From an uncultured bacterium (GTDB lineage Bacteria > Patescibacteriota > Minisyncoccia > Phycocordibacterales > UBA9973): 47,618 bases of DNA. Positions 716-39,006 of this stretch are shown in pieces. The DNA lies in contig CAIJZZ010000038.1 in NCBI GenBank assembly GCA_903825255.1, positions 1 through 47,618 on the forward strand, written 5' to 3'. The translations under genes and the position numbers were made by a program. The first letter of the stretch is position 1. Each line of letters starts with the position of its first letter. Below the pieces are notes generated by a model. It was not told where the DNA came from. It was given only the letters and a program-made list of their open reading frames with translations, and ran no database searches.

Positions 716-3193
716 ATGGCTAAAGAAAAAGACATAAAAACACTGGTTTTACTAGATGCACATGCGATAATTCATCGCGCTTATCATGCACTGCCTGAGT
801 TTATGTCTTCGAAGGGTGAGCCGACAGGAGCTCTTTATGGGCTTTCAAGTATGCTCATGAAAATAATAACTGATTTAAAACCAGATTACATTGTGGCTTG
901 TTATGACTTACCACAAAAAACTTTTAGGCATATTGCCTATGATGCTTATAAAGCAGGTAGAGCAAAAGCTGATGAAGCTTTAATCTCTCAGTTAAAAAAT
1001 TCTCGTAAGATTTTTGAAGCTTTTGATATTCCTATTTATGATGCGCCAGGTTTTGAAGCAGATGATATTTTGGGTACGATTGTTGAAAAATATAGAAAGG
1101 ATAAAAAAATAAAAATAATTATTGCTTCGGGCGACATGGATACGATGCAATTAGTGGATGATAAAAAAGTACAAGTTTATACTTTAAAAAAAGGAATCAA
1201 TGACACCATTTTATATGACGAAGATGCTGTTTTAGAACGTTTTGGGTTTAAGCCAGAATTTTTACCAGATTATAAAGGATTGCGTGGCGACCCATCAGAC
1301 AATATCATTGGCATCAAAGGAGTTGGTGAGAAAACGGCTACAGACTTGATAGTGACCTTCAGCACAATTGAAGAAATTTATAAACAATTGAAAAGTAAAG
1401 ATGCAGAACAAAAATTTAAAAAATTGAAATTTTCAGATCGAATGATTGAGCTTTTGAAAAATAATGAAGAGGAAGCTTTATTTTCTAAGACCTTAGCCAA
1501 GATCAGGCGAGATGCACCAATAGATTTTGTTCTGCCTAAAAAAACCTTTTGGGAGGCAGCGGATATTAAAAAAATTGAACAAATGTTTTTTGAATTTGAA
1601 TTTAGGAGTTTGTTCACGAGGATAAAAAGTTTTTTTGAAAATAATCAGAAAACAAGTTCAGAAGAAATTTCAGATCGAGATGCTCTCCGTCGCTCGCCCC
1701 ACATCCTGGAAGGGCAAGGTCTTTTTGGTAGCAGCGAAGGCTCCTCCGAGCATCTCGATCTGAAAGTAACACAAAATAGTGAAAAAATAGACGAACAAAA
1801 ACTCAAAGAAGCTTCTATCGCTCTTTGGCTTTTAAATTCTGATATTGCGAATCCAAATTTGGATGATATTTTATTTTTTGGCAAAACAAGATCTTTTGAA
1901 ATTGCTTATGAATATATTTTTAAACAATTAAAGGAAAAAAAATTAGAAAAAGTATATGAAGAAATAGAAAAGCCAATTATCCCTGTAGTAAAAGAGATGC
2001 AAGATTATGGGATTTTGATTGATCAGAAATATTTTGAAAAATTATCAAAAGAATATCATATAGAGCTAGATAAATTAACTTCAAAAATATATAAAATGGC
2101 GGGGACTGAATTTAATATTAATTCTCCAAAACAATTAGGTGAAGTACTTTTTGGAAAAATGGGAATGAAAACCAATAAGAAAAAGGGAGCGAGCGGATCA
2201 CTTTCAACTAAAATTTCTGTATTGGAAGAATTAGAAGAAGGAAATCCAATTATTAAAGAAATAATAAATTATCGAGAATTACAAAAGTTGCTCTCTACTT
2301 ATATTGATGTGATCCCTAAAATGATACAAAATGATGGCAGACTGCATGCAAAGTTTTTACAAAATGGTACCACGACTGGCCGGTTTTCCTCCCAGGATCC
2401 AAATTTACAAAATTTGCCTATTAAAAGTGAATTAGGTAGGAGAATTCGAGGTGGTTTTGTCGCGCAGAAAGGTTTTAAACTTTCCGCTTTTGATTATAGT
2501 CAGATTGAGTTGCGAGTTGCCGCGATGCTATCGGGAGACAAAAAAATGACCGTAATTTTTCATGAAGGAAAAGATATTCATGCTGGAGTAGCCTCTTTTG
2601 TTTTTGGAGTGCCAATAGAGAAGGTAGATCATGAGATGCGTCGACGAGCCAAGGTTATAAATTTCGGAATTATTTATGGTATGGGGGTTTCTGCTTTACG
2701 TAAAAATTTAGGTGGTACGCGTGAAGAAGCACAAAAATTTTATGATAATTATTTTAATCAATTTAAGGGAGTGCGGGATTATATGGAAAGTGTCAAAAGT
2801 TTTGCCGTAAAAAATACATATACAGAAACATTATTTGGTAGACGTAGATTTTTCCCAAACATTAATTCACGAATACCTTTTTTAAAAAACATGGCTGAAC
2901 GTACTGCTACCAACGCCCCTGTACAGGGAACAGCCGCGGATATTATTAAGCTCGCCATTCGTTATGCAGAAGAAGATTTAGATAGTGCTGGTTATTTAAA
3001 TAAGGCACATCTAGTGTTACAAATTCATGATGAATTGGTTTATGAGATAGAAGAAAGTATTTTGTCAAAAGCTGAAGAAATCATAAAAAAAGCGATGGAG
3101 ATGGTTCTTGAGAGATCATATTTACATTATCAAACAAGCATTCCACTTGAAGTGCATTATGGGTCAGGAAATAATTTAGGAGAAGTAAAGTAA
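716..3193 (+). CDS. polA: DNA polymerase I (5'-3' exonuclease plus family A polymerase)
   Basis: N-terminal FEADDILGT, GDPSDNIIGIKGVGEKTA; polymerase motifs TGRFSSQDPNLQNLP, FDYSQIELR, RRRAKVINFGIIYGM, QIHDELVYE. Confidence 0.97.
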   Translation: MAKEKDIKTLVLLDAHAIIHRAYHALPEFMSSKGEPTGALYGLSSMLMKIITDLKPDYIVACYDLPQKTFRHIAYDAYKAGRAKADEALISQLKNSRKIFEAFDIPIYDAPGFEADDILGTIVEKYRKDKKIKIIIASGDMDTMQLVDDKKVQVYTLKKGINDTILYDEDAVLERFGFKPEFLPDYKGLRGDPSDNIIGIKGVGEKTATDLIVTFSTIEEIYKQLKSKDAEQKFKKLKFSDRMIELLKNNEEEALFSKTLAKIRRDAPIDFVLPKKTFWEAADIKKIEQMFFEFEFRSLFTRIKSFFENNQKTSSEEISDRDALRRSPHILEGQGLFGSSEGSSEHLDLKVTQNSEKIDEQKLKEASIALWLLNSDIANPNLDDILFFGKTRSFEIAYEYIFKQLKEKKLEKVYEEIEKPIIPVVKEMQDYGILIDQKYFEKLSKEYHIELDKLTSKIYKMAGTEFNINSPKQLGEVLFGKMGMKTNKKKGASGSLSTKISVLEELEEGNPIIKEIINYRELQKLLSTYIDVIPKMIQNDGRLHAKFLQNGTTTGRFSSQDPNLQNLPIKSELGRRIRGGFVAQKGFKLSAFDYSQIELRVAAMLSGDKKMTVIFHEGKDIHAGVASFVFGVPIEKVDHEMRRRAKVINFGIIYGMGVSALRKNLGGTREEAQKFYDNYFNQFKGVRDYMESVKSFAVKNTYTETLFGRRRFFPNINSRIPFLKNMAERTATNAPVQGTAADIIKLAIRYAEEDLDSAGYLNKAHLVLQIHDELVYEIEESILSKAEEIIKKAMEMVLERSYLHYQTSIPLEVHYGSGNNLGEVK
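1668..1765 (+). repeat. Palindromic element (family A) inside polA, 98 bp with perfect 18-bp inverted arms
   Basis: Arms tttcagatcgagatgctc (1668-1685) and gagcatctcgatctgaaa (1748-1765) are exact reverse complements; core cgtcgctcgccccacatcctggaagggcaaggtc...gcagcgaaggctcctccgag recurs in uvrA and uvrB. Confidence 0.93.
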
Positions 3194-3231
3194 ATTTACT
3201 TTTTAGTTTTTTATAGTATAATAAAAGTCTT

Positions 3232-3726
3232 ATGTCTCAGAAAATAGAATCAATAAAAAATGAAAAAATGAAAGAAGTAGCACAAAAAATCAAAATACAT
3301 ACTATTTTGGCACATTCTTATTCTTTTTATTTTATTGCTTTTTTAGTTGGATTATTTTTTGATTTTATTTTTAAATTCAAAATATTTACTCATCCGATAG
3401 TAATTTTAATAGGATTTATTTTAATTATTTTTTCTTCTATTTTGATATTCTGGGCACAGAATACTTCTCGTAATTTAAAAAGCAAAATTTTAACCAAAGA
3501 TGATTTTTTAATAGGACCATACCGTTTTTCTAGAAGCCCAACTCATTGGGGACTAACATTTTTAATGCTTGGTTTTGGATTTTTAGTAAATGGATTTTTT
3601 GTGATTTTTCTTACAATTATTTCTTTTTTTATAACCAAGTTTATTCCTTTAAAAGAAGAAGAGGCTATTTTAGCTCAAAAATATGGTGAACCTTATTTAG
3701 AATATAAAAAACTAGTTAGAGTTTAA
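3232..3726 (+). CDS. Isoprenylcysteine carboxyl methyltransferase / PEMT-like membrane methyltransferase
   Basis: Multi-TM; GPYRFSRSPTHWG...KEEEAILAQKYGEPYLEYKK C-terminal ICMT/PEMT motif. Confidence 0.75.
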   Translation: MSQKIESIKNEKMKEVAQKIKIHTILAHSYSFYFIAFLVGLFFDFIFKFKIFTHPIVILIGFILIIFSSILIFWAQNTSRNLKSKILTKDDFLIGPYRFSRSPTHWGLTFLMLGFGFLVNGFFVIFLTIISFFITKFIPLKEEEAILAQKYGEPYLEYKKLVRV

Positions 3727-3729
3727 TTT

Positions 3730-4377
3730 ATGATTTATCTTTTTTCCGGAGACGACACAAAAACTAAATATAAAAACTACGAAAAATTTGTAGAGACTGC
3801 CTCGAAAGGAATAGAGGGGTTTTTTATAAACCGTAATAATTTTGACCGAATACAAATAGAGAGTCTCTACTCTGGAGCGGGGCTTTTTTTTAGTAAATGT
3901 CTGGTTGTGTTTACTGATGTTTTTGAAAGAGAAGAAACACGCGATTTTATTTTAGAAAAACTAGATTTTATTAGTGAGTCACAAAATGATTTTGTTTTTT
4001 TAGAAGGGAAATTAAATAAGCCAGTTTTAGATGCTTTTAAAAAAGTTCGAGCAGAATTAAATATTTTTGAATTAACTAAAGAAAAAAAAGAAAAATTTAA
4101 TAGTTTTTTATTGGCTAATGCGCTCGGGGATAGAGATAAATTAAATCTCTGGATTTATTTTAGACAAGCGATGGATAAAGGAGTAGGAATGGAGGAGTTA
4201 GTAGGAGTTTTGTTTTGGAAAGTGAAGGATATGATACTTAAAAAAGATTTTCGAAAATTTAAAGAGAAAGAACTGCAAGATTTTTCTGCTAAGATTTCTT
4301 ACCTGCTACCTCAAGCGCGCAAAGAAGGATTAGATGATGAATCAGTCTTTGAGCAGTTTTTACTTGAAGCATTTTAA
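3730..4377 (+). CDS. holA: DNA polymerase III delta subunit-like
   Basis: MIYLFSGDDTKTKYKNYEKFV N-terminus and overall HolA-like organisation (215 aa, short). Confidence 0.6.
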   Translation: MIYLFSGDDTKTKYKNYEKFVETASKGIEGFFINRNNFDRIQIESLYSGAGLFFSKCLVVFTDVFEREETRDFILEKLDFISESQNDFVFLEGKLNKPVLDAFKKVRAELNIFELTKEKKEKFNSFLLANALGDRDKLNLWIYFRQAMDKGVGMEELVGVLFWKVKDMILKKDFRKFKEKELQDFSAKISYLLPQARKEGLDDESVFEQFLLEAF

Positions 4378-4400
4378 AAAACTCCCATTGTGGGGTTTTT
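4376..4400 (+). terminator. Rho-independent terminator after holA
   Basis: aaaaactcccattgtggggttttt hairpin with T tail; also near the 3' end of the convergent tRNA. Confidence 0.6.
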
Positions 4401-4407
4401 AATTTTG

Positions 4408-4480
4408 TCCGCCCGCTCGGGATCGAACCGAGGACCTTATCCTTAAAAGGGATCTGCTCTACCAGCTGAGCTACGGGCGG
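4408..4480 (-). tRNA. tRNA-Lys (anticodon UUU)
   Basis: Reverse complement CCGCCCG TA GCTC AGCTGGTA GAGC A GATCC CTTTTAA GGATA AGGTC CTCGG TTCGATC CCGAG CGGGCGG A; cloverleaf folds, with a 27-43 mismatch; CCA not encoded. Confidence 0.93.
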
Positions 4481-4619
4481 TTATTTAACTTTATCTAAAA
4501 ACTAAACAATAAAACTACTATAATCTAACGACCTACCAAAACAACTACTGGCGGTTATTAAACTATAAAATGATAATATCTGAAATTACCTTAAAAATCA
4601 AGAAGAAGTTAAAATAATA

Positions 4620-4645
4620 CAGCCTGTTCACGTAGGATCAGGCTG
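4620..4645 (-). terminator. Hairpin overlapping the 3' end of the 4628-4972 gene
   Basis: cagcctg...caggctg inverted repeat, T-rich on the minus strand downstream. Confidence 0.5.
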
Positions 4646-4972
4646 TTCATTTTTAGGTGAAACATTCTTTTTAAGAAGATTTAAGGTTTTTTTAGAAACA
4701 ATTTCTTTAAAATAAAGAAATATTTCATCATCTACTTCTATAATATTACTTATGCTTTGATATGTGAGTTTTGGACCACCATAGTTCAAATTTAAGCTAT
4801 TCCAGGCTTGCTCTAAAAGAACGCTTGGTAAATTTTTTTTAATTTTTTTTATTCCTTTTTCAGATTTAAAATCAATTAAGATTTGTTTTTTAATTTTTTT
4901 ATTAGATTTTAAATAATACTGTAGTATAAGCTCTTTTAAAGCTTTCTTTATTTCATTTCTAATTTCGCTCAT
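4628..4972 (-). CDS. Hypothetical protein, 114 aa
   Basis: ORF with Lys-rich coding sequence; no family recognised. Confidence 0.6.
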   Translation of the reverse strand: MSEIRNEIKKALKELILQYYLKSNKKIKKQILIDFKSEKGIKKIKKNLPSVLLEQAWNSLNLNYGGPKLTYQSISNIIEVDDEIFLYFKEIVSKKTLNLLKKNVSPKNEQPDPT

Positions 4973-5045
4973 ATTTTTACAAGTTTACATTTAATAATAA
5001 ATTAACATAATAAAAAACAGAAGTCTATTTTTCAAAATTATTCAT

Positions 5046-7415
5046 TTGTTTTTTATTATATATATGGTTAAATTAGAAACGATGCAAAAAGAGAGTATTT
5101 TTAAACTACATAGCCCATTTCAGCCTGAAGGGGATCAACCACAGGCTATTTTGAAGTTAGTGGAGGGCTTAAAGAAAGGTATGCGTAAACAGACGCTTTT
5201 TGGAGCGACAGGCACTGGTAAGACTTTTACGATGGCCAATGTGATAGCCCAATACAACAAGCCGACATTAGTCATAGCGCATAATAAAACTCTCGCGGCT
5301 CAACTCGCCCAAGAATTCCGAGAATTTTTCCCCGATGCCGCAGTGCATTATTTTGTTTCTTACTATGACTATTATCAGCCAGAAGCCTATATGCCAGTTT
5401 CTGATACTTATATAGAAAAAGATGCACAGATCAATAAAGAAATTGATCGGCTTCGCCACGCTTCCACTCAGGCGCTTTTAACCAGACGAGATGTAATTAT
5501 TGTTGCCTCTGTGTCTTGTATTTATGGTTTGGGTAGCCCAGAAGAATATCAGAAAGTAAATCTAAAATTAGAAGTTGGGATGAAAATAGATCGGCTGAGT
5601 TTAATGAAACGTTTAATTGGAATACATTTTGAAAGAACGAATGCAGATTTGAGTGGAGGCCAATTCCGTTCAATCGGACCAAAAGTAGAATTCATGCCTA
5701 TATCTGAAACCACAATGTATCAAGTAGAAATTGAAGATGGAAAAATTTCAGCGATTAATAAAATAGAGGCAGTGTCTTCAAAAATAATCTCATCTCCAAA
5801 ATCAGTTTTTATTTTTCCTGCAAAACATTTTATTACTGAAGAAGTAAAAAAGAAAAAAGCATTAACTTTAATCAAAGATGAGCTGAAGATGCAACTAAAA
5901 AAATTTGAAAAAGAAGGTAAGCTTTTGGAAGCCGAACGAATTAAAAGACGAACGAATTATGACCTCGCAATGATTAAAGAAGTTGGCTATTGTAACGGTA
6001 TTGAAAACTATTCTCGTCACTTGTCTGGCAAAGCCGTTGGTGAACCACCAGAAACTTTGCTTTCATATTTTCCTCGTACTAAAAATCAGGAACATCCTTT
6101 TCGTCGTTCGCCCCACATCTTGGAAGGGCAAGGTCCAACTGACAGTAGCGCAGACTCCTTCAAGGATGTTCCTGATTTTTTGACGATTATTGATGAATCG
6201 CATGTGACCTTACCTCAATTAAATGGAATGTATGCGGGCGACGCCTCACGCAAAAAGACTTTGATTGAATATGGTTTTCGTTTACCTTCAGCGGCGGACA
6301 ACCGACCTCTTAAATATCCTGAATTTGAAAAGAGGATTGGCCCGGTGATTTATACGAGTGCCACTCCGAGTGAAGTGGAGCGAGCTACTAGTGAACAAAT
6401 TGTAGAACAAATTATTCGTCCGACTGGTTTAATTGATCCAGAAATAATTGTGCGACCTGTTTCAGCTACCTCGTCAGAGGTGCAGTTTTCTGCGAGGTCC
6501 TCGGTTCTCCTCGCCTCCGGCTCGGCCAGACCATCGCATAAAACTGCACCTCTGCCTCGTGGCAGCAGTGCAGATTCTTCCGAGAACATTGGGAAGGCTT
6601 ATGTTGGTCAGATTCAAGATTTTATTGCTGAAGCGGAAAAGACAATCAAAAAAGGTTTTCGAGTGTTAGCTACGACGCTGACAAAAAAAATGGCAGAAGA
6701 TTTGTCTACGTATTTAAAAGAAAAAGGAATTAAAGCAGAATATTTACATAGTGATATTAAAACGATTGACCGAATAAAAATTCTCACTCAGTTTAGACGT
6801 GGCGGATTAAATAAAAATAAAGAAGAAGGGGGTTTTGATATTTTAGTCGGGGTGAACTTATTGCGTGAAGGTTTGGATTTACCGGAAGTGGCGTTAATCG
6901 GCATTCTCGATGCTGACAAAGAAGGGTTCCTTCGTTCTGAAACTTCACTTATTCAAACAATCGGCCGAGCAGCCCGTAATAGTGAAGGTAAGGTCATTCT
7001 TTATGCCGATGTGATGACAGGTTCACTTGAGAGAGCCATCAAGGAAACAAATCGTCGTCGAAGTATTCAAATTGCTTATAATAAAAAACACAGCATTACT
7101 CCGACAACGATTTTGAAAAAGATAAAAGATATTACACAAGAAATGGAAAGCGTGCATGGGAAAGCAGTGAATGCAGAATTAACGCTTGATTTGGAAATAT
7201 TCAAACGTGCTCAGAAAAAAGAAATAAGTAAAGAATTAGCGAAAGATTATTTACGAGCACCCACGCCAGAGAAATTACAGAACGAATTAATTTATAAAAA
7301 AATAATTAAACTTAAAGAAAAAGAAATGAATAAAGCGGTAAAAGAATTAGATTTTGAGACAGCTGCGATTCTTCGGGATGAGATAGTAGTTCTAAAAGAA
7401 AAAATTGAGAAATAA
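5046..7415 (+). CDS. uvrB: Excinuclease ABC subunit B (start probably internal, ATG at 5064 or 5082)
   Basis: GATGTGKTFTMANVI, YFVSYYDYYQPEAY, SRHLSGKAVGEPPETLLSYFP, TIDESHVT, VGVNLLREGLDLPEV, C-terminal UVR domain. Confidence 0.97.
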   Translation: MFFIIYMVKLETMQKESIFKLHSPFQPEGDQPQAILKLVEGLKKGMRKQTLFGATGTGKTFTMANVIAQYNKPTLVIAHNKTLAAQLAQEFREFFPDAAVHYFVSYYDYYQPEAYMPVSDTYIEKDAQINKEIDRLRHASTQALLTRRDVIIVASVSCIYGLGSPEEYQKVNLKLEVGMKIDRLSLMKRLIGIHFERTNADLSGGQFRSIGPKVEFMPISETTMYQVEIEDGKISAINKIEAVSSKIISSPKSVFIFPAKHFITEEVKKKKALTLIKDELKMQLKKFEKEGKLLEAERIKRRTNYDLAMIKEVGYCNGIENYSRHLSGKAVGEPPETLLSYFPRTKNQEHPFRRSPHILEGQGPTDSSADSFKDVPDFLTIIDESHVTLPQLNGMYAGDASRKKTLIEYGFRLPSAADNRPLKYPEFEKRIGPVIYTSATPSEVERATSEQIVEQIIRPTGLIDPEIIVRPVSATSSEVQFSARSSVLLASGSARPSHKTAPLPRGSSADSSENIGKAYVGQIQDFIAEAEKTIKKGFRVLATTLTKKMAEDLSTYLKEKGIKAEYLHSDIKTIDRIKILTQFRRGGLNKNKEEGGFDILVGVNLLREGLDLPEVALIGILDADKEGFLRSETSLIQTIGRAARNSEGKVILYADVMTGSLERAIKETNRRRSIQIAYNKKHSITPTTILKKIKDITQEMESVHGKAVNAELTLDLEIFKRAQKKEISKELAKDYLRAPTPEKLQNELIYKKIIKLKEKEMNKAVKELDFETAAILRDEIVVLKEKIEK
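6081..6180 (+). repeat. Palindromic element (family A) inside uvrB, 100 bp with perfect 19-bp arms
   Basis: aaaaatcaggaacatcctt (6081-6099) versus aaggatgttcctgattttt (6162-6180) are exact reverse complements; core cgtcgttcgccccacatcttggaagggcaaggtc matches the polA copy. Confidence 0.93.
6475..6554 (+). repeat. Palindromic element (family B, possibly composite) inside uvrB, perfect 15-bp arms
   Basis: cagaggtgcagtttt (6475-6489) versus aaaactgcacctctg (6540-6554); core aggtcctcggtt...ggctcggccagaccatcgca resembles the uvrC element. Downstream ggcagcagtgcagattcttccgaga resembles the family A 3' end. Confidence 0.85.
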
Positions 7416-7416
7416 A

Positions 7417-7444
7417 AAGAGGTTGCGAAACAAGCAACCTCTTC
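7417..7444 (+). terminator. Rho-independent terminator after uvrB
   Basis: aagaggttgc-gaaacaa-gcaacctctt perfect 10-bp stem. Confidence 0.75.
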
Positions 7445-7467
7445 AAAAAATAGTTATATTACTATTT

Positions 7468-7584
7468 TTATTTTGTTTTAGCTGATGTTTGTGCATGTAA
7501 TGGTCCTTTATAGTCAGGATTACAACTCACCATCATAACCATTAACATTACTGCTAATGATAAAAGAAGAACAGATTTTTTCAT
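7468..7584 (-). CDS. Small putative lipoprotein, 38 aa
   Basis: MKKSVLLLSLAVMLMVMMVSCNPDYKGPLHAQTSAKTK*: signal peptide plus lipobox-like MVSC; below the ORF-track length cutoff. Confidence 0.5.
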   Translation of the reverse strand: MKKSVLLLSLAVMLMVMMVSCNPDYKGPLHAQTSAKTK

Positions 7585-7681
7585 ATAAATTTTTTTAATA
7601 TTTAATTTAGATTAACCTTTTTGGGTATTTTTGTCAAATTGAGAAGTTTGTGATATAATAGATTTATATTAATATTGATAC

Positions 7682-7708
7682 ACACCCCTATAGAGTAGAG
7701 CGGGGTGT
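7682..7708 (+). promoter_or_regulatory. Hairpin in the uvrA leader
   Basis: acacccctatagagtagagcggggtgt: 7-bp arms acacccc/ggggtgt just upstream of the uvrA ATG (7725). Confidence 0.5.
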
Positions 7709-7724
7709 CATTGCGTTATACATA

Positions 7725-10418
7725 ATGAAACCAGAAAAAAATATAGACAAAATAACGATTAAAGGGGCGCGGACCCATAATCTAAAAAATATAAACGTTG
7801 AAATGCCACGAAATAAAATGGTGGTAATTACGGGCGTCTCCGGTAGTGGTAAGTCATCGCTTGCTTTTGACACGATCTTTGCGGAAGGGCAGAGACGTTA
7901 TGTGGAGTCACTCTCTTCTTATGCACGACAATTTTTAAACCAAATGCCGAAGCCGGATGTAGATGAAATCACCGGGCTTTCTCCGGCGATTTCCATTGAT
8001 CAAAAATCTCGATCGAACAATCCTCGTTCAACTGTGGCGACGATTACCGAAATTTATGATTATCTACGTGTGATGTATGCGCGCATCGGGCATCCGCATT
8101 GTCCGGAATGTGGTGAGGAAATTAAAAAACTTTCCAACGAAGAAATCGTGAATTTTATTTTGGAGAAAGTAAAAGATTTAGAGAAATCTTCCCAACGTCC
8201 TCTCCGGAATTCGCACTCTATCTTGGAAGGGCAAGGTCTTTCTGGCCGCAGCGAAGATTCCTCCGAGGATACTGGAAAGATTTCTAAAACCCAAAAAGGG
8301 AGACGTTCGGTGATGGGCGTCGAATGGAATGAAACTAATATAAATATTTTTGCACCGATTGTGCGAGGGAGAAAAGGGGAGCATTATCAATTACTTTATG
8401 ATTTACTCGGGAAAGGTTTTTCTGAAATTTCTTTAGATGGAGTAATGAAAAAGTTGCGTGAACAAATAATTCTTTCTAAAACTAAAGCGCACAACATCGA
8501 TGTACTCGTGGATCGTTTTGCGGTGCATGAATTTTCTGATAGTAAGGAGGCGAGTCGAATGCGCTTAGCTGAAGCCGTCGAGCGAGCATTGCTCGAATCG
8601 CATGGCCTTGTGACTGTACGAATTTTAGACGAAGAATTTATTATGTCCGCAAATTTAGCTTGTAAAAATGATGGCTTTTCTTTCCCGGAAATTGAACCAC
8701 GTTTATTTTCTTTCAACTCTCCGTATGGTGCTTGTGTGGCTTGTAATGGCCTCGGTACAAAATATTTTGGTGGAGATGAAGTTTGTGACGAATGTCATGG
8801 CGCACGTTTGCGACCAGAAGCCTTGAATGTATTCATAAATGCGGGCAAAACCCGAAAAAATATTTTAGAACTTTCTTCTTTTTCAATCGCTGATGCACTA
8901 GAATTTTTCAAAACTTTAAAACTCACTGACCAAGAGAAAGATATTTCTGTGCCTGTGGTTCGCGAGATTGAGGCCCGATTGCAATTTATGCTCGATGTAG
9001 GACTGGATTATTTACAACTTTCACGTAAAGCCAATACTCTCTCTGGTGGGGAAGCACAGCGTATTCGATTAGCTTCACAATTGGGCTCCAGATTAGTGGG
9101 GGCTTTGTATGTGCTCGATGAACCAACGATTGGATTACATCAACGTGATAATGATAGATTAATAAAAACCTTAATTAATTTACGTGATTTAGGTAATACA
9201 ATTATTATTGTGGAGCATGACGAAAATACTATTTATGCATCGGATTATATTGTGGACATCGGACCGAAAGCTGGTGTGCACGGAGGAGAAGTCGTTGTGT
9301 CTGGATATTTGGATGAACTTTTAACAGCGAAAAAAAATGTGAGCGGCTCAAGGACCTTGGCTTATCTACGCGAAGAAGAAAAAATAGAATTACCTAAAAA
9401 ACGCCGAGAGAAAAAAGGTGCACTTCGGATTACTGGTGGAAAAGTTTTTAATATAAATAATTTAAATGTAGAAGTACCACTTGGTGTAATGACGACGATT
9501 ACTGGAGTTTCTGGTTCTGGTAAAAGTTCTTTTATGTATGAAATTTTGCATAAGAATTTACAAGCGCGATACGAGCGGGCTTTTAGAAGTGCGAAAACTT
9601 ATAATTGTACTTCTTTTACCGGGACAGAATATTTAACTCGAGCCATTTTGATTGATCAATCACCAATCGGCCGAACACCGAGGTCTAATGTTGCTACTTA
9701 TACTGGAGCCTTTACTCACATTCGTGAATTATTTGCGACGACCGAAGAAGCTCGTTTGCGAGGTTGGAAAGCGAATCGTTTTTCTTTTAATGTAAAAGGT
9801 GGACGCTGTGAAGCGTGCGAAGGGAATGGCCAAATCGCCGTCGAGATGCATTTTTTGCCTACAGTATATGTGACTTGTGATGTTTGTAATGGTAAGCGTT
9901 TTGACAATGAAACTCTCACGGTGAAATATAAGAAAAAAAATATTTATGATGTTTTAAAAATGACGGTGGAACAAAGTTTAGTTTTCTTTAAAGATATTCC
10001 GCAAATTGCTGATAGATTACAAACTTTAATGGAAGTAGGACTGGGTTATTTAGAGCTCGGTCAAAGTGCGACGACGCTCTCGGGTGGTGAAGCACAGCGA
10101 GTAAAAATTTCAAGCGAGCTTTATCGTCCACATCTAGAAAAAACAATTTATTTATTAGATGAACCGACGGTAGGACTTCATTATGATGATGTAGCAAAAC
10201 TTTTGGAAGTTTTAAATAAATTAGTGTCGAAAGGGAATACTGTCGTTTTAATTGAACACAACTTAGATATTATTAAATGCTCAGATTATATTATTGATAT
10301 TGGCCCGGAAGGTGGAGTGAATGGTGGAAACTTAGTCGCTAAAGGTACGCCAGAAGAAATCGCAAACAGTCCAAAAAGTTACACTGGAAAATATTTAAAG
10401 AAGGTATTAAAAAGGTAA
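7725..10418 (+). CDS. uvrA: Excinuclease ABC subunit A
   Basis: [58 protein letters not shown], two zinc modules, [17 protein letters not shown]. Confidence 0.98.
8177..8285 (+). repeat. Degenerate palindromic element (family A) inside uvrA
   Basis: Arms tttagagaaatcttcccaacgtcctc / gaggatactggaaagatttctaaa pair imperfectly (about 18/24); core ctctccggaattcgcactctatcttggaagggcaaggtctttctggccgcagcgaagattcctccgag clearly matches the polA copy. Confidence 0.87.
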
Positions 10419-10424
10419 ATTTTT

Positions 10425-11789
10425 ATGAATATTAAAGATATTAAAAAATTTAATATCCCAAATACCCCAGGAGTATATTTTTTTCTAAAAGGTAAAAGTA
10501 TTATTTATATTGGCAAAGCAACTTCATTAAAAGATAGGGTTAAAAGTTATTTTAATAAAGACTTGATTAGTATGCGCGGACCAGTAATCTTAGAGATGGT
10601 TTTCCAAGCGGATAAAATAAAATGGGAGAAAACAGACAGTGTGCTCGAAGCCTTAATCTTAGAAGCAGAGTTAATTAAAAAATATCAGCCGAAATATAAT
10701 ACTAAAGAAAAATCAGATAAGAGTTTCAATTATGTTTGTTTTACTAAAAGTAATCTACGCCGTGGCGTAGATGATTTACCGAAGGTTATTGTCGTACGAG
10801 GAAGAGTTGTGCAACACTCGGTGTTGAACAAATATAATAAAATATATGGGCCATTTCCCAATAGTACACAACTAAAAGAAGGTTTAAAAATAATTCGACG
10901 AATCTTCCCATTTTTAGATGATAAATCAAAAAAGTATTACAAATTTTATAAACAAGTTGATTTAGTACCTGACATTTCAAATGAAGAAAAAATTAAAAAA
11001 TACAAAGCAAATGTAAAAAATATTGAATTATTTTTTCAGGGAAAAAAGAAAAAATTAATAAAAGATTTACAGAAAGAGATGATGCAATTAGCGAAAAAGC
11101 ATGAGTTTGAAAAAGCAGGCGAAGTTAAAAGACAAATTTTTGCCTTAAAACATATAAACGATATTGCTCTGATTAAGCAGGATGTTTCGCAGAAAAATGC
11201 TTTTACTCAGGTCCTCGGGTCGCCTGTGCATAAATCTAAAAAAGAACAGGCTCAACCAGACCATTCGCAAAAGCATTTTTCTGCCACACAAGATTTTCGT
11301 GGTGAGTCCGAGAGTATTTTCTCTGAAGGCAAAACCTATTCAACTTTTCGCATTGAAGCCTATGATGTGGCACATATGAGTGGCAGAAATATGGTGGGAG
11401 TGATGACGGTGGTGGAGGACGGGGAAATAAATAAAAATGAATACAGAAAATTCAAAATCAAAACTCAAAGTGGGGCCAATGATACTGGTGCGCTAGGGGA
11501 GATAATAGAAAGGAGACTTGTACACACAGAATGGAACTACCCGAATTTGATAGTGGTGGATGGGGGTAAGGCACAAATAAATGCGGTAGAAAAAATATTT
11601 AAAAAAGTGGGGATTGGTATTCCAATTGTGTCAGTCTTAAAAGACGAAAAACATAAGCCAAAAGATATTTTAGGAAGGCGTGATTTGGCAACAAAATATG
11701 AAAAAGAAATTCTATTAGCCAACAGTGAAGCGCACAGGTTTGCTATTAGCTATCATAAACAAATGCGTGGAAAAAATTTTTTGAAATAA
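10425..11789 (+). CDS. uvrC: Excinuclease ABC subunit C (no C-terminal HhH region visible)
   Basis: GIY-YIG domain TPGVYFFLKGKSIIYIGKATSLKDRVKSYF; UVR region; RIEAYDVAHMSGRNMVGVM, LIVVDGGKAQ. Confidence 0.95.
   Translation: MNIKDIKKFNIPNTPGVYFFLKGKSIIYIGKATSLKDRVKSYFNKDLISMRGPVILEMVFQADKIKWEKTDSVLEALILEAELIKKYQPKYNTKEKSDKSFNYVCFTKSNLRRGVDDLPKVIVVRGRVVQHSVLNKYNKIYGPFPNSTQLKEGLKIIRRIFPFLDDKSKKYYKFYKQVDLVPDISNEEKIKKYKANVKNIELFFQGKKKKLIKDLQKEMMQLAKKHEFEKAGEVKRQIFALKHINDIALIKQDVSQKNAFTQVLGSPVHKSKKEQAQPDHSQKHFSATQDFRGESESIFSEGKTYSTFRIEAYDVAHMSGRNMVGVMTVVEDGEINKNEYRKFKIKTQSGANDTGALGEIIERRLVHTEWNYPNLIVVDGGKAQINAVEKIFKKVGIGIPIVSVLKDEKHKPKDILGRRDLATKYEKEILLANSEAHRFAISYHKQMRGKNFLK
10753..10772 (+). repeat. 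Mini-palindrome in uvrC (9-bp arms, 2-nt loop)
   Basis: atctacgcc-gt-ggcgtagat exact inverted repeat. Confidence 0.75.
10807..10831 (+). repeat. Mini-palindrome in uvrC (11-bp arms, 1 mismatch)
   Basis: ttgtgcaacac-tcg-gtgttgaacaa. Confidence 0.7.
11189..11284 (+). repeat. Palindromic element (family B) inside uvrC, perfect 16-bp arms
   Basis: gcagaaaaatgctttt (11189-11204) versus aaaagcatttttctgc (11269-11284); core aggtcctcgggt...ggctcaaccagaccattcgca shared with the second uvrB element. Confidence 0.9.
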
Positions 11790-13118: not shown

Positions 13119-13997
13119 TTATTTTTGATGCACTGAACAATAGTGGGCGCTGCGGCCGTTGATGATTTTGCGCAAAATTATGCCCTTACAATTTTTCTTT
13201 TGGCATTTTTCACCAGCTCGACGGTAAGCCATATGATGCATTTGAAATTCTCCTTTTTGTCCATAAATATTTCGGTAGTCAGACATAGAGTCTCCACCGA
13301 AATCAATGCCTTTCCTTAAAAGTTTTTTTGTATTTTGAAATATTTTTAATAATTCTTTTTCCTTTATGTTTTTAACTCTTCTTTCTGGATGAATACCAGA
13401 ATGCCAAAGTATTTCATCTGAATAGATGTTGCCAATACCCACAATCACAGATTGGTCTAGTAAAACAGTTTTGATTTTACCATTTGGTTTTTTACTTAGT
13501 CGTTCCTTCAAAATTTTGAAAGTAAAATTTTTGTCTAGTGGTTCAGGTCCGAGATTTTGTAAATGCCTAGAATCTTGAATATTTTTTGTATCTAATAATG
13601 TGATCTTTCCAAACTTGCGAATATCTGAAAATGCTAAGCATTTGGATTTAGATAAATAAAAAATAAAATGAATAAAAGGACGGTCCTTAAGAGAGTTTCC
13701 CCAAGGACCGTCCTTAAAAGAGCCAAATAACAAATTCCCAGTCATTTTCATGTGGATTAACACTGTCTTGTCTCCCGATAAATATATTAAAATATTTTTA
13801 GCTCTTCGTTCTACTGATAAGATTTTTTTATTTTTTATTTCATTTTTAAAAACAGTAAAATATTTCGGATTCGCAACCGTATCTTTTTTACGTTTATCTT
13901 TAGTGTTTAAATCAGTCCAGACATCTAGTATTTTAAAGCCCACAACCTCTTTTTGAAGGCCTCGAACTGTTGTTTCTACTTCTGGTAGCTCTGGCAT
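13119..13997 (-). CDS. mutM: Formamidopyrimidine-DNA glycosylase
   Basis: MPELPEVETTVRGLQ N-terminus, DQSVIVGIGNIYSDEILW, C-terminal zinc-finger-like CQKKNCKGIILRKIINGRSAHYCSVHQK. Confidence 0.96.
   Translation of the reverse strand: MPELPEVETTVRGLQKEVVGFKILDVWTDLNTKDKRKKDTVANPKYFTVFKNEIKNKKILSVERRAKNILIYLSGDKTVLIHMKMTGNLLFGSFKDGPWGNSLKDRPFIHFIFYLSKSKCLAFSDIRKFGKITLLDTKNIQDSRHLQNLGPEPLDKNFTFKILKERLSKKPNGKIKTVLLDQSVIVGIGNIYSDEILWHSGIHPERRVKNIKEKELLKIFQNTKKLLRKGIDFGGDSMSDYRNIYGQKGEFQMHHMAYRRAGEKCQKKNCKGIILRKIINGRSAHYCSVHQK
13676..13715 (-). repeat. Mini-palindromic insertion inside mutM (perfect 13-bp arms)
   Basis: aaggacggtcctt (13676-13688) versus aaggaccgtcctt (13703-13715); encodes SFKDGPWGNSLKDRPF. 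Confidence 0.75.
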
Positions 13998-15813: not shown

Positions 15814-15919
15814 AAAAAGAAACTTTATTTTTTAGGGTACGGATTTTTTGAAGCTTAAAAAATCCTGAAGTTCTCGGCTCGCCAGCCTCGAAACCCCCTA
15901 AAAAATAAAGTTTCTTTTT
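15814..15919. repeat. Intergenic palindromic element (family C): perfect 24-bp outer arms with two inner hairpins
   Basis: aaaaagaaactttattttttaggg (15814-15837) versus ccctaaaaaataaagtttcttttt (15896-15919); inner ggattttttgaagcttaaaaaatcc and ggctcgccagcc. Confidence 0.92.
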
Positions 15920-15924
15920 GTTTA

Positions 15925-16025
15925 CAGAAATACTTGTTTTAGAAAACATTGCACAGGCCGACTGGGCCGAGCATAGCAAAAATTCAGTAGAATTTTATGC
16001 GTGTTTTATAAAATAAGTATTTCTG
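15925..16025. repeat. Intergenic palindromic element (family D): 23-bp arms, 21/23 paired, structured core
   Basis: cagaaatacttgttttagaaaac versus gttttataaaataagtatttctg; core attgcacaggccgactgggccgagcatagcaaaaattcagtagaattttatgc. Confidence 0.85.
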
Positions 16026-23946: not shown

Positions 23947-26900
23947 ATGTATCTTTATATAAAAAAAATTTCTCTTTTATTTAAAAAATCAAAAGGGTTT
24001 ACGCTTCTAGAAATACTTTTAGTCTTGGCCATTATTGCGATTTTGACAGCGGTTGTGATTCCGATTTCCCAAACTGTTTTTACTCAAAGTAATTTGACAA
24101 TATCTGCTCAAAATATTCAGTCAGATTTAAATCGTGCTTATACTTATGCTCGAGCTGGTAAAAATGATTCAGATTGGGGAGTACATATAGGATTAAAAGA
24201 GGAAGGAGCAATCTCGAATTGTGGAGGAAATAATGGAGGATTACAATTATTATTAAATTCATCTCGAGAAATATTAAAAACAAAAAAAGCGCTGGCTGCG
24301 CTGGGTCAAGGTGGTGGAATTGGATCCATTAATTCTATTTTTTCTGTGACACTTTTTTCAGGTTCTGAATATGACCCTGCTAATACAAATTGCTTAAATG
24401 AAACATATGATTTGCCTCCTAATATTACCTTAGGCGGTACGTTATCAGGTCAAAATATAAATGGGGATGTTTTTATTTCTGATGTTGTTTTTACTAAAGG
24501 CTCTGGTACGCCAAGTATTCCGAATTTAACTGACACTATTACTCTAACTTCAGAGCAAGGGATTGTAAAAATACTCACAATTAATTCTAAAGGAGTAGTA
24601 AATTTAAAAGATGGAGTAATCACCCCAACTTTTACTTTTGATCCGAATTGGCAAAATAATACTGAGTTAAATCAACCATTTAATATAGCGACCGATTCTA
24701 GTCACAATGTTTATGTAGTTGACCGTTTAAATAATCTCATTCAAAAATTTGATTCCTCAGGAACTTTTATTACAAGTTGGGGTGGTGATGCAGGTATTGG
24801 TAGTTTAAATAGACCACAAGGTATTGCCATTGATTCGGCTAATAATATTTATGTGGTAGATACATTCAATAATCGCATCCAAAAATTTGATTCTTCTGGA
24901 AATTTTATTACTAGCTGGGGTAGTAGTGGAATAGGAGAAGGAGAATTTAGTCGTCCATCAGGAATTGCTATTGATTCAAATAATAATATTTATGTAGGAG
25001 ATTCTGGTAATAATCGCGTCCAAAAATTTGATTCTTCTGGTACATATATTACCCAGTTTAGCTACGGCTGTTTAAGTGATTTAAGGATGAAGAAATTTAA
25101 TTCTTTATTTGCTTTTTTTTCTGAATATAATTTAGGTTTCTTAAATTTTAACATACCTAAAGCCGAGGCATTCTCTGCACTAATTTCCGCTTATGGCAAT
25201 CTAGCACTTGATTCAGCAAATAATGTTTATGTAGTAGCTAGTAGTAGTTGCATTAATAAATTTACTTCTTCCGGAAGTCCATTGGGTGAATTAAATAATT
25301 TAGCTCAAGATGGTGAAGAATCTATTTTATTATCAGGTATTACAATGGACTCTTCAAATAATCTTTATGTAACAGATCTAGCTAATAATAATATTAAAAT
25401 GTTTAGTCCCTCAGGAACTTTTATTACTAGTTGGGGGACTTATGGTTCTGGAGAAAATGAATTTAATTCACCAAGAGGGATTGCTTTTGATCCAGCGAGC
25501 ACAATTTATGTAGCAGACACTGGGAACAATCGTATTCAAAAGTTTACTAAGGGTTCATCTGGTGGATTGCCTATTGGAAATATTAACAATACTTTTACTT
25601 TAACTTATTCTGCGGGAGCAAAGGGTTCTATCTCTGGAACAACTCGACAAACTGTGAATTCAGGGGCAGATGGTATTTCTGTGTTTGCTGTTGCTAATTC
25701 AGGGTATCACTTTATTTCTTGGAGTGATAGTGTCACAGATAATCCTCGTACTGATACAAATGTTAATCATGATATTTCTGTGTCAGCAACTTTTGTTGCT
25801 GATCAACAATTTACTCTTGCTTATACTGCTGGAGCAAATGGTTCTATCTCTGGAACAACTCCACAGACGGTAAATTCTGGAGGAGATGGTACTGCCATTA
25901 CAGCTGTGCCCGATGAAGGTTATCGTTTTGTAAATTGGAGCGATGGGTCAACATCTAATCCCAGGACAGACACAAATATTGTTTCAGATATTTTTGTTGT
26001 TGCAAATTTTTCTCAATACACTAATGCTTATATACAATCAATTACTGCTGCCCTTGTTCCAATATGTCCTTTTGAAACTACTACAATTAGTGCTAATGGG
26101 GTATTAGGTACTAACGCCGTTATGACATGGTGGACTGGCAGTGGAGGAACAGGAACAAATCTAGGGCATCTCAATCCGTTGACTGTAGGTCCTGGAACTT
26201 ATTATGCGAGAGTGACTGCTGATTATGGGGTACCCGTGGAATCATCTATAACCGTTTCAACTAAACCAGCTAATTTGTGTAACCATACTCTCACTTATAC
26301 TGCTGGAGCTAATGGAAGAGTGACTGGCACAACCCCACAAATAGTAACTCATGGCACTGGTGGCACAGCGGTTAATGCTATTCCAGATTCTTGTTATACC
26401 TTCGTTTCTTGGAGTGATGGCTCAACTTCTAACCCCCGCACTGATACAAATGTAGTTGGCAACATTTCAGTTACTGCAAATTTTTCGATGATTAATTCAT
26501 TTGCTGGTGGTTCTGGAACTACAGAAGACCCATTCCAAGTAGCAAATGCAAATCAACTTAATGCCATTAATAATTCATGTTTCTTGCACTTAAAATTCAT
26601 ACAAACTGCCGATATCGATATGAATATCGCACCGTACAATACGGGTGCTGGTTTTACCCCAATTGGTTTTACCCCAATTGAGGGGAGTGTGTATTTTTAT
26701 GGAACTTATAATGGGAATGGTTATAAGATAAGTAATCTTTATATTAATTCTCCCCAAATGTATCCAGTTGGTTTATTTAATGTAATTTCAGGAGCAATGT
26801 TGTCTAATATTAAATTACAAAACGTGGATATTACTGGCTACCAAGATGTAGGCGGATTGGTTGGAATAAACGATTCTTCTTCCTTAATTTCTAATAGTTA

Positions 26901-27321
26901 TTCTACTGGTGTAGTGAGGGGTGGGGTGCAGGTGGGGGGGTTGGTTGGATTGAACCGAGCAACTATTTCGAATAGTTATTCTAGGGTTAATGTAACTGCT
27001 ACCACAAGTGAGAATAGTTATTCTGGTGGATTAATTGGTGGTAGTTACGGTTCATCATCTGTGTCAAATAGTTATTCTACTGGCGTGGTAATTGGAGATG
27101 CTTATTGGGCGCATGGGTTTATCGGAATTAATTCCGGAGGAAGTGCTTCTAATAATTTTTATGACTTAAATACTTCTGGTCATTCAGACGAGTCAGGAGC
27201 AACACCAGAGACGACTTCCTGGATGAAAAATGCTCAGAATTTTATAGATAACGGTTGGAATTTTTCAACGATCTGGGATATTAATGGAGCTATAAATAAT
27301 GGCTACCCATTCTTAAGATAA
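23947..27321 (+). CDS. Giant prepilin-like protein (GspH/FimT-position) with NHL repeats, InlB-like repeats and GLUG motifs
   Basis: KSKGFTLLEILLVLAIIAILTAVVIPI (class III prepilin signal, E5); IQKFDSSGNFITSWGS...GIAIDSANNIYVVDT repeats; YTAGANGSISGTTPQTVNSGGDGTAITAVPDEGYRFVNWSDGS repeats; NSYSTGVVRGGVQVGGLVGLN. Confidence 0.9.
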   Translation: MYLYIKKISLLFKKSKGFTLLEILLVLAIIAILTAVVIPISQTVFTQSNLTISAQNIQSDLNRAYTYARAGKNDSDWGVHIGLKEEGAISNCGGNNGGLQLLLNSSREILKTKKALAALGQGGGIGSINSIFSVTLFSGSEYDPANTNCLNETYDLPPNITLGGTLSGQNINGDVFISDVVFTKGSGTPSIPNLTDTITLTSEQGIVKILTINSKGVVNLKDGVITPTFTFDPNWQNNTELNQPFNIATDSSHNVYVVDRLNNLIQKFDSSGTFITSWGGDAGIGSLNRPQGIAIDSANNIYVVDTFNNRIQKFDSSGNFITSWGSSGIGEGEFSRPSGIAIDSNNNIYVGDSGNNRVQKFDSSGTYITQFSYGCLSDLRMKKFNSLFAFFSEYNLGFLNFNIPKAEAFSALISAYGNLALDSANNVYVVASSSCINKFTSSGSPLGELNNLAQDGEESILLSGITMDSSNNLYVTDLANNNIKMFSPSGTFITSWGTYGSGENEFNSPRGIAFDPASTIYVADTGNNRIQKFTKGSSGGLPIGNINNTFTLTYSAGAKGSISGTTRQTVNSGADGISVFAVANSGYHFISWSDSVTDNPRTDTNVNHDISVSATFVADQQFTLAYTAGANGSISGTTPQTVNSGGDGTAITAVPDEGYRFVNWSDGSTSNPRTDTNIVSDIFVVANFSQYTNAYIQSITAALVPICPFETTTISANGVLGTNAVMTWWTGSGGTGTNLGHLNPLTVGPGTYYARVTADYGVPVESSITVSTKPANLCNHTLTYTAGANGRVTGTTPQIVTHGTGGTAVNAIPDSCYTFVSWSDGSTSNPRTDTNVVGNISVTANFSMINSFAGGSGTTEDPFQVANANQLNAINNSCFLHLKFIQTADIDMNIAPYNTGAGFTPIGFTPIEGSVYFYGTYNGNGYKISNLYINSPQMYPVGLFNVISGAMLSNIKLQNVDITGYQDVGGLVGINDSSSLISNSYSTGVVRGGVQVGGLVGLNRATISNSYSRVNVTATTSENSYSGGLIGGSYGSSSVSNSYSTGVVIGDAYWAHGFIGINSGGSASNNFYDLNTSGHSDESGATPETTSWMKNAQNFIDNGWNFSTIWDINGAINNGYPFLR

Positions 27322-27385
27322 GTAAAAACAGTTTTTCTTTAAACAGACTTGTCTCAAATTAAAACATAAATTTATCTTTCTTTGG

Positions 27386-27432
27386 TATAACCCTATAGTA
27401 GAACTTTTAAAAAGTTTCACTACGGGGTATAA
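27386..27432 (+). repeat. Short imperfect palindromic repeat (family E), copy 1
   Basis: tataaccctatagtagaacttttaaaaagtttcactacggggtataat; a second copy at 36667 differs at one base in the shared stretch. Confidence 0.85.
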
Positions 27433-27440
27433 TTTAACTG

Positions 27441-28793
27441 ATGAATATAAGTCAGCCAAAAAGCAATTCTCAATTTAAGAAAATAAAAAATAATTCAGGT
27501 TTTTTGTTAGTGGAGATTATTTTATCTATCTCCCTTTTTGCGATTGTGGTCTTGGGAGCAGTTACCGGAATCTTATATGCACAGAAAGCCCAAGTAAATG
27601 CCGGTGCGAATAATCGAGCAGTAGCGATAGCGGAAGATTCGCTTGAAATAATACGTAACATTCGCAGTACAATTTTTTCTTCTACAGTACCTAATTGTAG
27701 TCAGGAAAATAGATGTGGCTTACAAAGAGATAATAATACCGGGGCTTGGTCTATTGTAGAGGGGAACGGTGATGATAATTCAGGTTTTCATCGTAGTGTT
27801 TTAATCCAACCAGGAAACATAAATGGAGAATGTGGAGTTAGTTATAATGATATTACAGTTGAGATTTGGCCAAATGGAGTAGACAAAGAACCCGTTTCTC
27901 TTTCTACTCAACTTACAAATTGGAATATTTTGAATAATCCATTTTATACTTTTTCTTTAGCTTGGGGTAGAAATGGTTCTGAGGATGGAAATTTTTCATA
28001 TCCAAAAGGAATTATTGCTGATTCACTTGGTAATATTTATGTAGCAGATTCAGGTAATCATCGTATAGAAAAATTCGATTCCTCTGGAACTTTTATTACT
28101 AAATGGGGAAGTTATGGTTCTGGTGATACTCAATTTATCAATCCATCTGATGTAGCCATTGACTCATCTGATAATGTGTTTGTGTTAGATGGGGGTAACA
28201 GACAAGTTAAAGAATTTGATTCTTCTGGAACTTTTATTACTAAATGGGGAAGTTCTGGTTCTGGTAATGGACAATTTAATAATCCAAAAGGAATAACTAT
28301 TGATTCGTCTGATAATATTTATGTAGCTGATACTGATAACAATCGTATTCAAGAATTTGATTCTTCTGGAACTTTTATTACTAAATGGGGGGGGATCTGG
28401 GGTTATAATAATGGACAATTAAAAAGTCCACAAGGTATTAGTGTTGATTATTCTAATAACATTTATGTAGCAGATTTATATAATTATCGTATTCAAAAAT
28501 TTGATTCTTCAGGAAATTATATTACTCAATGGGGAAGTGGTGGTTCTGGTGATGGACAATTTAATCCGGTTTATGACGTTACTGTTGATTCTTTAGGAAA
28601 TATTTATACTGTTGACGGGAATAATCGTATTCAAAAGTTTGATTCTTCTGGAAACTACATTACTAAATTCGGAGAAAATGGTTCTTGTAATGGGCAATTT
28701 AGTTCCCCCCAAGGTATTTTAGTTACACCTACAGGTGATTTATATATATCAGATACGAATAACCATAGAATTCAAAAATTTATTCCCAAATAA
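27441..28793 (+). CDS. Prepilin-like protein (GspI/PilV-position) with NHL repeats
   Basis: KNNSGFLLVEIILSISLFAIVVLGAVTGILYA (E5), then six or more NHL-like repeats. Confidence 0.88.
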   Translation: MNISQPKSNSQFKKIKNNSGFLLVEIILSISLFAIVVLGAVTGILYAQKAQVNAGANNRAVAIAEDSLEIIRNIRSTIFSSTVPNCSQENRCGLQRDNNTGAWSIVEGNGDDNSGFHRSVLIQPGNINGECGVSYNDITVEIWPNGVDKEPVSLSTQLTNWNILNNPFYTFSLAWGRNGSEDGNFSYPKGIIADSLGNIYVADSGNHRIEKFDSSGTFITKWGSYGSGDTQFINPSDVAIDSSDNVFVLDGGNRQVKEFDSSGTFITKWGSSGSGNGQFNNPKGITIDSSDNIYVADTDNNRIQEFDSSGTFITKWGGIWGYNNGQLKSPQGISVDYSNNIYVADLYNYRIQKFDSSGNYITQWGSGGSGDGQFNPVYDVTVDSLGNIYTVDGNNRIQKFDSSGNYITKFGENGSCNGQFSSPQGILVTPTGDLYISDTNNHRIQKFIPK

Positions 28794-28800
28794 TAATTTT

Positions 28801-32325: not shown

Positions 32326-32369
32326 TATTTTTATAAATTTTTTTCATGTTAAAATAAAAATATATTATT

Positions 32370-38878: not shown

Positions 38879-39006
38879 GCTTGTTTTGTAATTTTTTAGG
38901 TACGGATTTTTTGAAGCTTAAAAAATCCTGCCTAGCCCGTGCCGGGACGGCCGAGGGAAGTTTTCGTCTCGACAGACTCGAAACTCCTAAAAATCACAAA
39001 ACAAGC
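38879..39006. repeat. Intergenic palindromic element (family C), copy 2, between csoR and copA
   Basis: Outer arms gcttgttttgtaattttttagg / cctaaaaatcacaaaacaagc; inner tacggattttttgaagcttaaaaaatcctg identical to the 15838 copy; inner gtctcgacagac hairpin. Confidence 0.9.

Follow-up and report, generated by a model that had tools for sequence, protein, structure and literature searches.

The DNA analysed here (hereafter the window) is a stretch of 47,618 nucleotides from an uncultured bacterium of the phylum Patescibacteriota (GenBank assembly GCA_903825255.1, contig CAIJZZ010000038.1, positions 1 to 47,618), whose genome amounts to 980 kb in 78 contigs and belongs to the genus Candidatus Nomurabacteria. 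Four of its genes, identified with Pfam as polA, uvrB, uvrA and uvrC, host five palindromic elements, two of them in uvrB. An earlier note on this DNA had described them as insertions that share cores between genes, carry inverted arms private to each copy and leave the frame of the host gene intact. When the inverted-repeat arms were recomputed, all five elements were found at the positions given there, and translation of the Pfam-confirmed genes revealed a single frame that stays open across every one of them. The core pattern had no match in 100 dinucleotide shuffles of the window.

All elements lie on the forward strand and fall into two families, A and B. In the polA linker, an in-frame family A core (1686-1747; LRRSPHILEGQGLFGSSEGSS; covariance model E 2.2e-22) is enclosed by arms at 1668-1685 and 1748-1765 that form a perfect inverted repeat of 18 bp. 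The copy at the first insertion site of uvrB has its core at 6100-6161, likewise in frame (E 9.2e-23), between arms at 6081-6099 and 6162-6180 that pair perfectly over 19 bp. In uvrA the in-frame core at 8203-8264 (E 5.5e-23) is flanked by arms at 8182-8202 and 8265-8285, with 17 of 21 positions paired. Family B is represented at the second uvrB site by a core at 6496-6533 (GGTCCTCGGTTCTCC..GGCCAGACC), one of 13 B copies in the source genome, whose arms at 6475-6495 and 6534-6554 pair at 20 of 21 positions. The B element in uvrC combines perfect 16 bp arms (11189-11204 and 11269-11284) with a core at 11205-11268 that contains a longer, private inner hairpin, GCCTGT..ACAGGC.

A dispersed core in a constant frame

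Ten copies of family A obtained by pattern search could be aligned nearly gap-free. Each copy consists of the core, CCGTCRTTCGCACTCYRTCTTGGAAGGGCAAGATC..TCTGGTCGYAGCGAAGAYTCCTCC, the flanks RTGCTC/GAGCAY and, further out, copy-specific sequences that pair with each other. With a covariance model, 38 copies were found in 23 of 80 genomes of the genus, and 384 genomes sampled from the class gave matches in five only, all of them Candidatus Nomurabacteria. Three diverged, intergenic A-like copies in one genome (G113) were excluded from the counts, leaving 35 main-clade copies. Their host genes, named by Pfam, NCBIfam and orthology, are uvrB (11 copies), polA (8), recG (3), leuS (3), uvrA (2), uvrC (2), recJ (2), cca (2), tgt (1) and rnhA (1). 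Thus 29 of the 35 sit in genes of repair, recombination or replication (uvrA/B/C, polA, recG, recJ, rnhA), which, by a rough estimate from gene lengths, account for no more than a few percent of all coding DNA. Every copy lies within an open frame, 31 in sense and four in antisense orientation (three in recG, one in recJ). The sense copies all share one frame, reading RRSHSxLEGQ (31/31); a second forward frame is also open in 34 of the 35 copies, yet no sense copy uses it.

Insertion, as proposed in the earlier note, is borne out by this dispersal: the A core also occurs in recG (antisense) and rnhA of the source genome and in 22 further genomes of the genus. In close relatives the segment is often missing from the orthologous gene, and the seven A copies at the second uvrB site correspond to seven changes on the uvrB tree. 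The scattered presence and the short empty alleles rule out an ancient domain. Near-identical cores in different genes, such as those of uvrC and uvrB in genome G130 (1 difference in 63) or those of uvrB in G118 and polA in G068 (2 in 63), attest to recent movement of the core. Carriage by phages was rejected, as the core patterns had no match in IMG/VR viral contigs.

Private arms that pair

Among the 35 A copies the pairwise mismatch amounts to 0.217 for the core, against 0.66-0.67, close to chance, for the outer arms, in agreement with the common core and private arms of the earlier note. The stem common to all copies comprises only the inner 3-6 bp (RTGCTC/GAGCAY) and belongs to the core; only the outer stem is private. 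Outside this inner stem the left and right arms of one copy pair at 83% of positions, compared to 34% when the left arm of one copy is set against the right arm of another (0/5000 permutations). The inner core stem itself varies between copies in a linked manner (GT/AC, AT/AT, GC/GC). Since a covariance model might favour armed copies, the search was repeated with the core pattern alone. This arm-blind search returned 35 copies, each already in the armed set, and none of these core-only matches lacked arms. The two G130 copies with near-identical cores have unrelated outer arms.

Family B behaves similarly. Its 13 core matches in the source genome, counted after exclusion of tRNAs and one chance match, all carry arms as judged by eye, and the outer arms differ among 37 B loci in the gene clusters retrieved, some of which overlap. 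This family is less focused on repair than family A, with uvrB, uvrC, ligA and recJ among the 13 host loci in the source genome. A tRNA gene in the window (4408-4480, anticodon TTT by eye) has a T arm, AGGTCCTCGGTTCGATCC, that resembles the B core AGGTCCTCGGTTCTCC; judging from this likeness, a tRNA may be the origin of family B, or the resemblance may be due to chance. A third family, C, is found at 15814-15919 and 38879-39006, where a common core (TTTTTTAGGTACGGATTTTTTGAAGCTTAAAAAATCCTG..CTCGAAACYCCTAAAAA) and inner stem are combined with different outer arms; one copy is intergenic and the other lies at the start of an open reading frame for a P-type ATPase. Directly after a C copy follows an intergenic palindrome (15925-16025) with 24 bp arms, 92% paired, around a complex core that includes AAAATTCAGTAGAATTTT.

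Orthologous copies reveal how the pairing behaves over time. In ten polA B copies of the same orientation with homologous arms, pairing is 0.923 within copies and 0.631 when arms are crossed between them (0/5000 permutations); these arms change and yet remain paired. By contrast, uncompensated arm mismatches are found in the three A copies of leuS, which are clearly orthologous, and in the first-site uvrB copy of G130 described below. Re-pairing thus takes place, but not constantly. Among the mismatches in A arms, A.C pairs outnumber G.T pairs by 30 to 11, with a naive p of 0.004 that treats non-independent cells as independent. If one strand folds, this excess would point, as a lead only, to the complement of the sense strand of the element rather than to the mRNA.

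Arms often derived from the host locus

The earlier note had also suspected that the arms are locus-derived, and comparison of UvrB across 53 genomes of the genus, which revealed two insertion sites, substantiates this at both of them. At the first site, element-free genes encode YFP(KTG / HKADGTPD)FLTIIDESH. In the window, alignment with these orthologues identifies the outer part of the right arm, CCTGATTTTT, as native UvrB coding sequence (PDFLTIIDESH), and the PDFL codons at 6171-6180 recur as their reverse complement in the outer part of the left arm. The right arm occurs in the variants CCAGATTTCTT, CCTGATTTTT and CCTGACTTTCT, all of them native PDFL codons with synonymous differences. 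In three genomes (G136, G000 and G112) the left arm matches the reverse complement of these codons exactly; here the right arm varies synonymously and the left arm tracks its changes, altering its own amino acids. In G130, four arm bases are mismatched: the left arm would pair with CCGGATTTTTTA, and the flank reads CAGGACTTCCTA. To judge from these letters, the G130 arm looks like a fossil of an older flank.

At the second site, where element-free genes read VSEKGKYPGQIQDF, five A copies carry 7-16 bp of the native YPGQI codons inversely copied as their left arm, and two (G143 and G141) have a right arm copied from the left flank. The arms of a copy can derive from either flank, a point that the earlier note had missed. 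G126, with a UvrB about 96% identical, provides the empty allele for G141. Inverted-repeat scores at the uvrB sites are 11-20 in A-filled alleles and 4-7 in empty ones, the latter within the range of shuffles. Arms are thus often locus-derived: in uvrB one of them falls within conserved codons of the gene, and the other repeats these as their reverse complement. A different insertion mechanism, which the earlier note took this to imply, is one possibility only. The arms may form at insertion or afterwards by hairpin-templated correction, which is a documented process (PMC8794818, PMC6649704).

Turnover at shared sites

The same sites in uvrB and polA are occupied by at least six unrelated palindromic families. 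Most genomes carry an element at the second uvrB site: A (7), B in sense (4) or reversed (3) orientation, E (4), F, G, H or others; the polA linker harbours A (8), B (19), E, F, H and others. Four relatives at about 96% amino acid identity in UvrB illustrate the pace of exchange at the second site: G126 is empty, G141 contains A, G124 contains B and G125 contains G. The window adds to this picture, as two of its five elements are nested in or lie beside older ones, a further refinement of the earlier note. In uvrB, the B element (6475-6554) resides inside the remains of a family A element, of which a 3'-end remnant at 6562-6585 retains 20 of 24 bases; in other genomes this place holds an A that is intact. 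The B element in uvrC (11189-11284) adjoins a family H remnant at 11298-11317 that is near-identical to H in the uvrB of G140, and G144 has an A at the same uvrC site.

Replacement can also be partial. In the leuS of G125, a palindrome, AAGGACCGTCCTT, has taken the place of the left part of an A element whose right end remains. Compared to the A insert of its relatives the left two thirds differ, but the total length of the segment measured, 168 nt, is the same. This palindrome recurs in the window as an in-frame insert in mutM, the gene for formamidopyrimidine-DNA glycosylase (13676-13718; AAGGACGGTCCTT..AAGGACCGTCCTT), and its arms are common to both copies. A further hot spot is tgt, with an interrupted A-like remnant in G130, an E-like element in G138 and an A in G110; the site is empty in G095, G098, G117 and G132.

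Inserts in the predicted protein and other features of the window

In the AlphaFold model of UvrB, residues 336-360 and 464-504, which comprise both inserts, have a predicted local distance difference test score (pLDDT) below 50 and form the longest low-confidence stretches, as expected for extruded loops. The inserts occupy open frames and low-confidence loops of the predicted model, and may be translated as part of a protein that still works. Elsewhere in the window, positions 1-230 hold the end of a tandem-repeat protein (GGTTCTTACACTACTGGTGGCTCGAACTTAAACGGTGGTACAAATGTAAACACT). The region 23947-34904 encodes three long proteins that bear NHL beta-propeller and/or InlB-type B repeats; in one of them the N-terminus has a methylation motif like that of type IV pilins.

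Mechanism and alternative explanations

We lean towards the view that these elements are non-autonomous selfish inserts, similar to the Rickettsia palindromic elements (RPEs), and that intrastrand template switching, in which one flank is copied as its reverse complement, makes or maintains their stems. The core, conserved over about 62-74 bp and including the common inner stem of 3-6 bp, would move between loci, presumably by means of a trans-acting enzyme. At or soon after insertion, the hairpin would trigger a snap-back, an intrastrand template switch by which a target flank is copied, as reverse complement, onto the opposite side, so that a short stem grows into a long one consisting partly of host-gene sequence. 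Later switches would re-pair drifted arms in the manner of quasipalindrome correction, and stems that escape correction would decay. Copies would persist only at places that tolerate the extra peptide, namely surface loops and domain linkers, and only in the single frame that codes for a hydrophilic, disordered peptide. Template switching is known to generate perfect hairpins in a single step and to repair them later (PMC8794818), and it has been proposed for coding palindromes in hairworm mitochondria (PMC6649704).

Several observations weigh against this view. Overall, cores are not closer within than between genomes (6671 of 10000 permutations gave values as low), so that horizontal exchange may be as important as local copying; intragenomic bursts were rejected as the main mode on this ground. 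Intermediates with a core and only short arms were not found, and the arms may consequently arrive with the insertion through some other transposition chemistry. Template switching alone leaves the arrival of the core from elsewhere unexplained. No enzyme or route that moves it was identified, and filled and empty alleles of uvrB and tgt reveal no consistent direct target-site duplication. In polA, uvrA and leuS the variability of the native flank precludes proof that the arms are locus-derived, and the UvrB model is of modest quality, with a mean pLDDT of 65.

Among the alternatives, selection on nucleic-acid structure would explain the stems as functional hairpins, acting in mRNA stability or regulation or as a folded DNA strand, in which compensatory substitutions keep the pairing. 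The co-variation of orthologous polA B copies and the linked changes of the inner core stem are what such selection would produce. It has to contend, however, with the many unrelated families at the same sites and with relatives that have none, with the uncompensated mismatches in leuS and in G130, and with antisense elements in recG and recJ; the excess of A.C over G.T mismatches, naive as its p value is, runs opposite to the wobble tolerance of mRNA. We therefore consider this explanation unlikely. That the segment is absent from the protein, being spliced, hopped over or excised as an intervening sequence after the arms have joined the flanks, would suit a compact stem-loop closed round a structured core. 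Removal does not require the one frame shared by all sense copies, and the scan of the window with Rfam 15 returned two tRNAs only, with neither an intron nor any other known structured RNA above threshold; we regard it as highly improbable.

The origin of the long stems can also be sought in the element or in the target. A classical RPE or miniature inverted-repeat transposable element (MITE) would own long terminal inverted repeats that have simply diverged between copies, and the size, palindromic form, in-frame fusion and constant frame are indeed those of RPEs (PMC10969869, PMC2229807). We give this very little credence, since the outer arms differ as by chance around cores that are 78% alike, the stems extend into native UvrB codons, and the near-identical cores of G130 are framed by unrelated outer arms. 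Hardly credible is the insertion of cores into the loops of palindromes already present, despite the precedent of the Yersinia YPAL elements, whose targets lie at or beside regions of dyad symmetry (PMC2229807): the empty alleles of both uvrB sites score no higher than shuffled sequence, which indicates that the palindrome is no older target.

Relation to known elements and significance

RPEs are palindromic repeats of about 100 bp, in the range of about 100-150 bp, that form several families, lie in frame in conserved genes and encode a peptide conserved in one frame (PMC10969869, PMC2229807). The elements described here resemble them and their Wolbachia counterparts in size, palindromic multi-copy form, in-frame use and constancy of frame. 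They differ in that the long stem of RPEs belongs to the element, whereas here 3-6 bp are common and the remainder is private and partly host-gene sequence; they also stem from a different phylum, and family A is strongly concentrated in repair genes. The precedent invoked in the earlier note hence holds for in-frame palindromic insertion and fails for an element-owned stem, as the mismatch of 0.66-0.67 in the outer arms against 0.217 in the core makes plain. For want of such a stem, we describe the elements as working like RPEs and do not class them among these. With MITEs such as RUP, ERIC and Correia/NEMIS they have in common that they are short, non-autonomous, dispersed and palindromic, but there are neither conserved long terminal inverted repeats beyond the 3-6 bp of common stem nor a clear target duplication. 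No parental transposase was identified, and no search was aimed at a parental transposon.

Similarly, the mitochondrial coding palindromes of Nematomorpha (PMC6649704) are inverted repeats in coding sequence with matched arms under protein constraint, for which template switching or conversion has been proposed; in contrast to the present elements, they have no common mobile core, and in them both arms code for conserved residues. A parallel for the adjacent reverse-complement copy and the later re-pairing of the arms is provided by template-switch (quasipalindrome) mutations (PMC8794818, PMC7202029). Both traits are found here, an arm as inverse copy of adjacent ancestral sequence at the two uvrB sites and re-pairing in the polA B copies, with leuS and G130 as exceptions, but the process is coupled to the arrival of a repeated core. 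It is possible, if rather doubtful, that we are looking at a class of mobile elements whose insertion chemistry includes snap-back copying of a flank (inverted instead of direct target duplication), so that each copy obtains its own stem from the host gene, a chemistry common to several unrelated core families of one genus. A search of the available literature found no paper linking Nomurabacteria, insertion and uvrB.

The phylum is known mainly from metagenomes, in-frame palindromic inserts are familiar from Rickettsiales, coding palindromes from the mitochondria of hairworms, and template-switch hairpins from rRNA. Here they come together, in the form of a dispersed core with stems copied from the host gene. 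About 80 genomes allow filled, empty and overwritten alleles to be compared at the same site, and inverted target duplication and the upkeep of long palindromes in genes become directly testable. Finally, that family A is concentrated in genes of DNA repair could have consequences for mutation rate or transformation in these bacteria.

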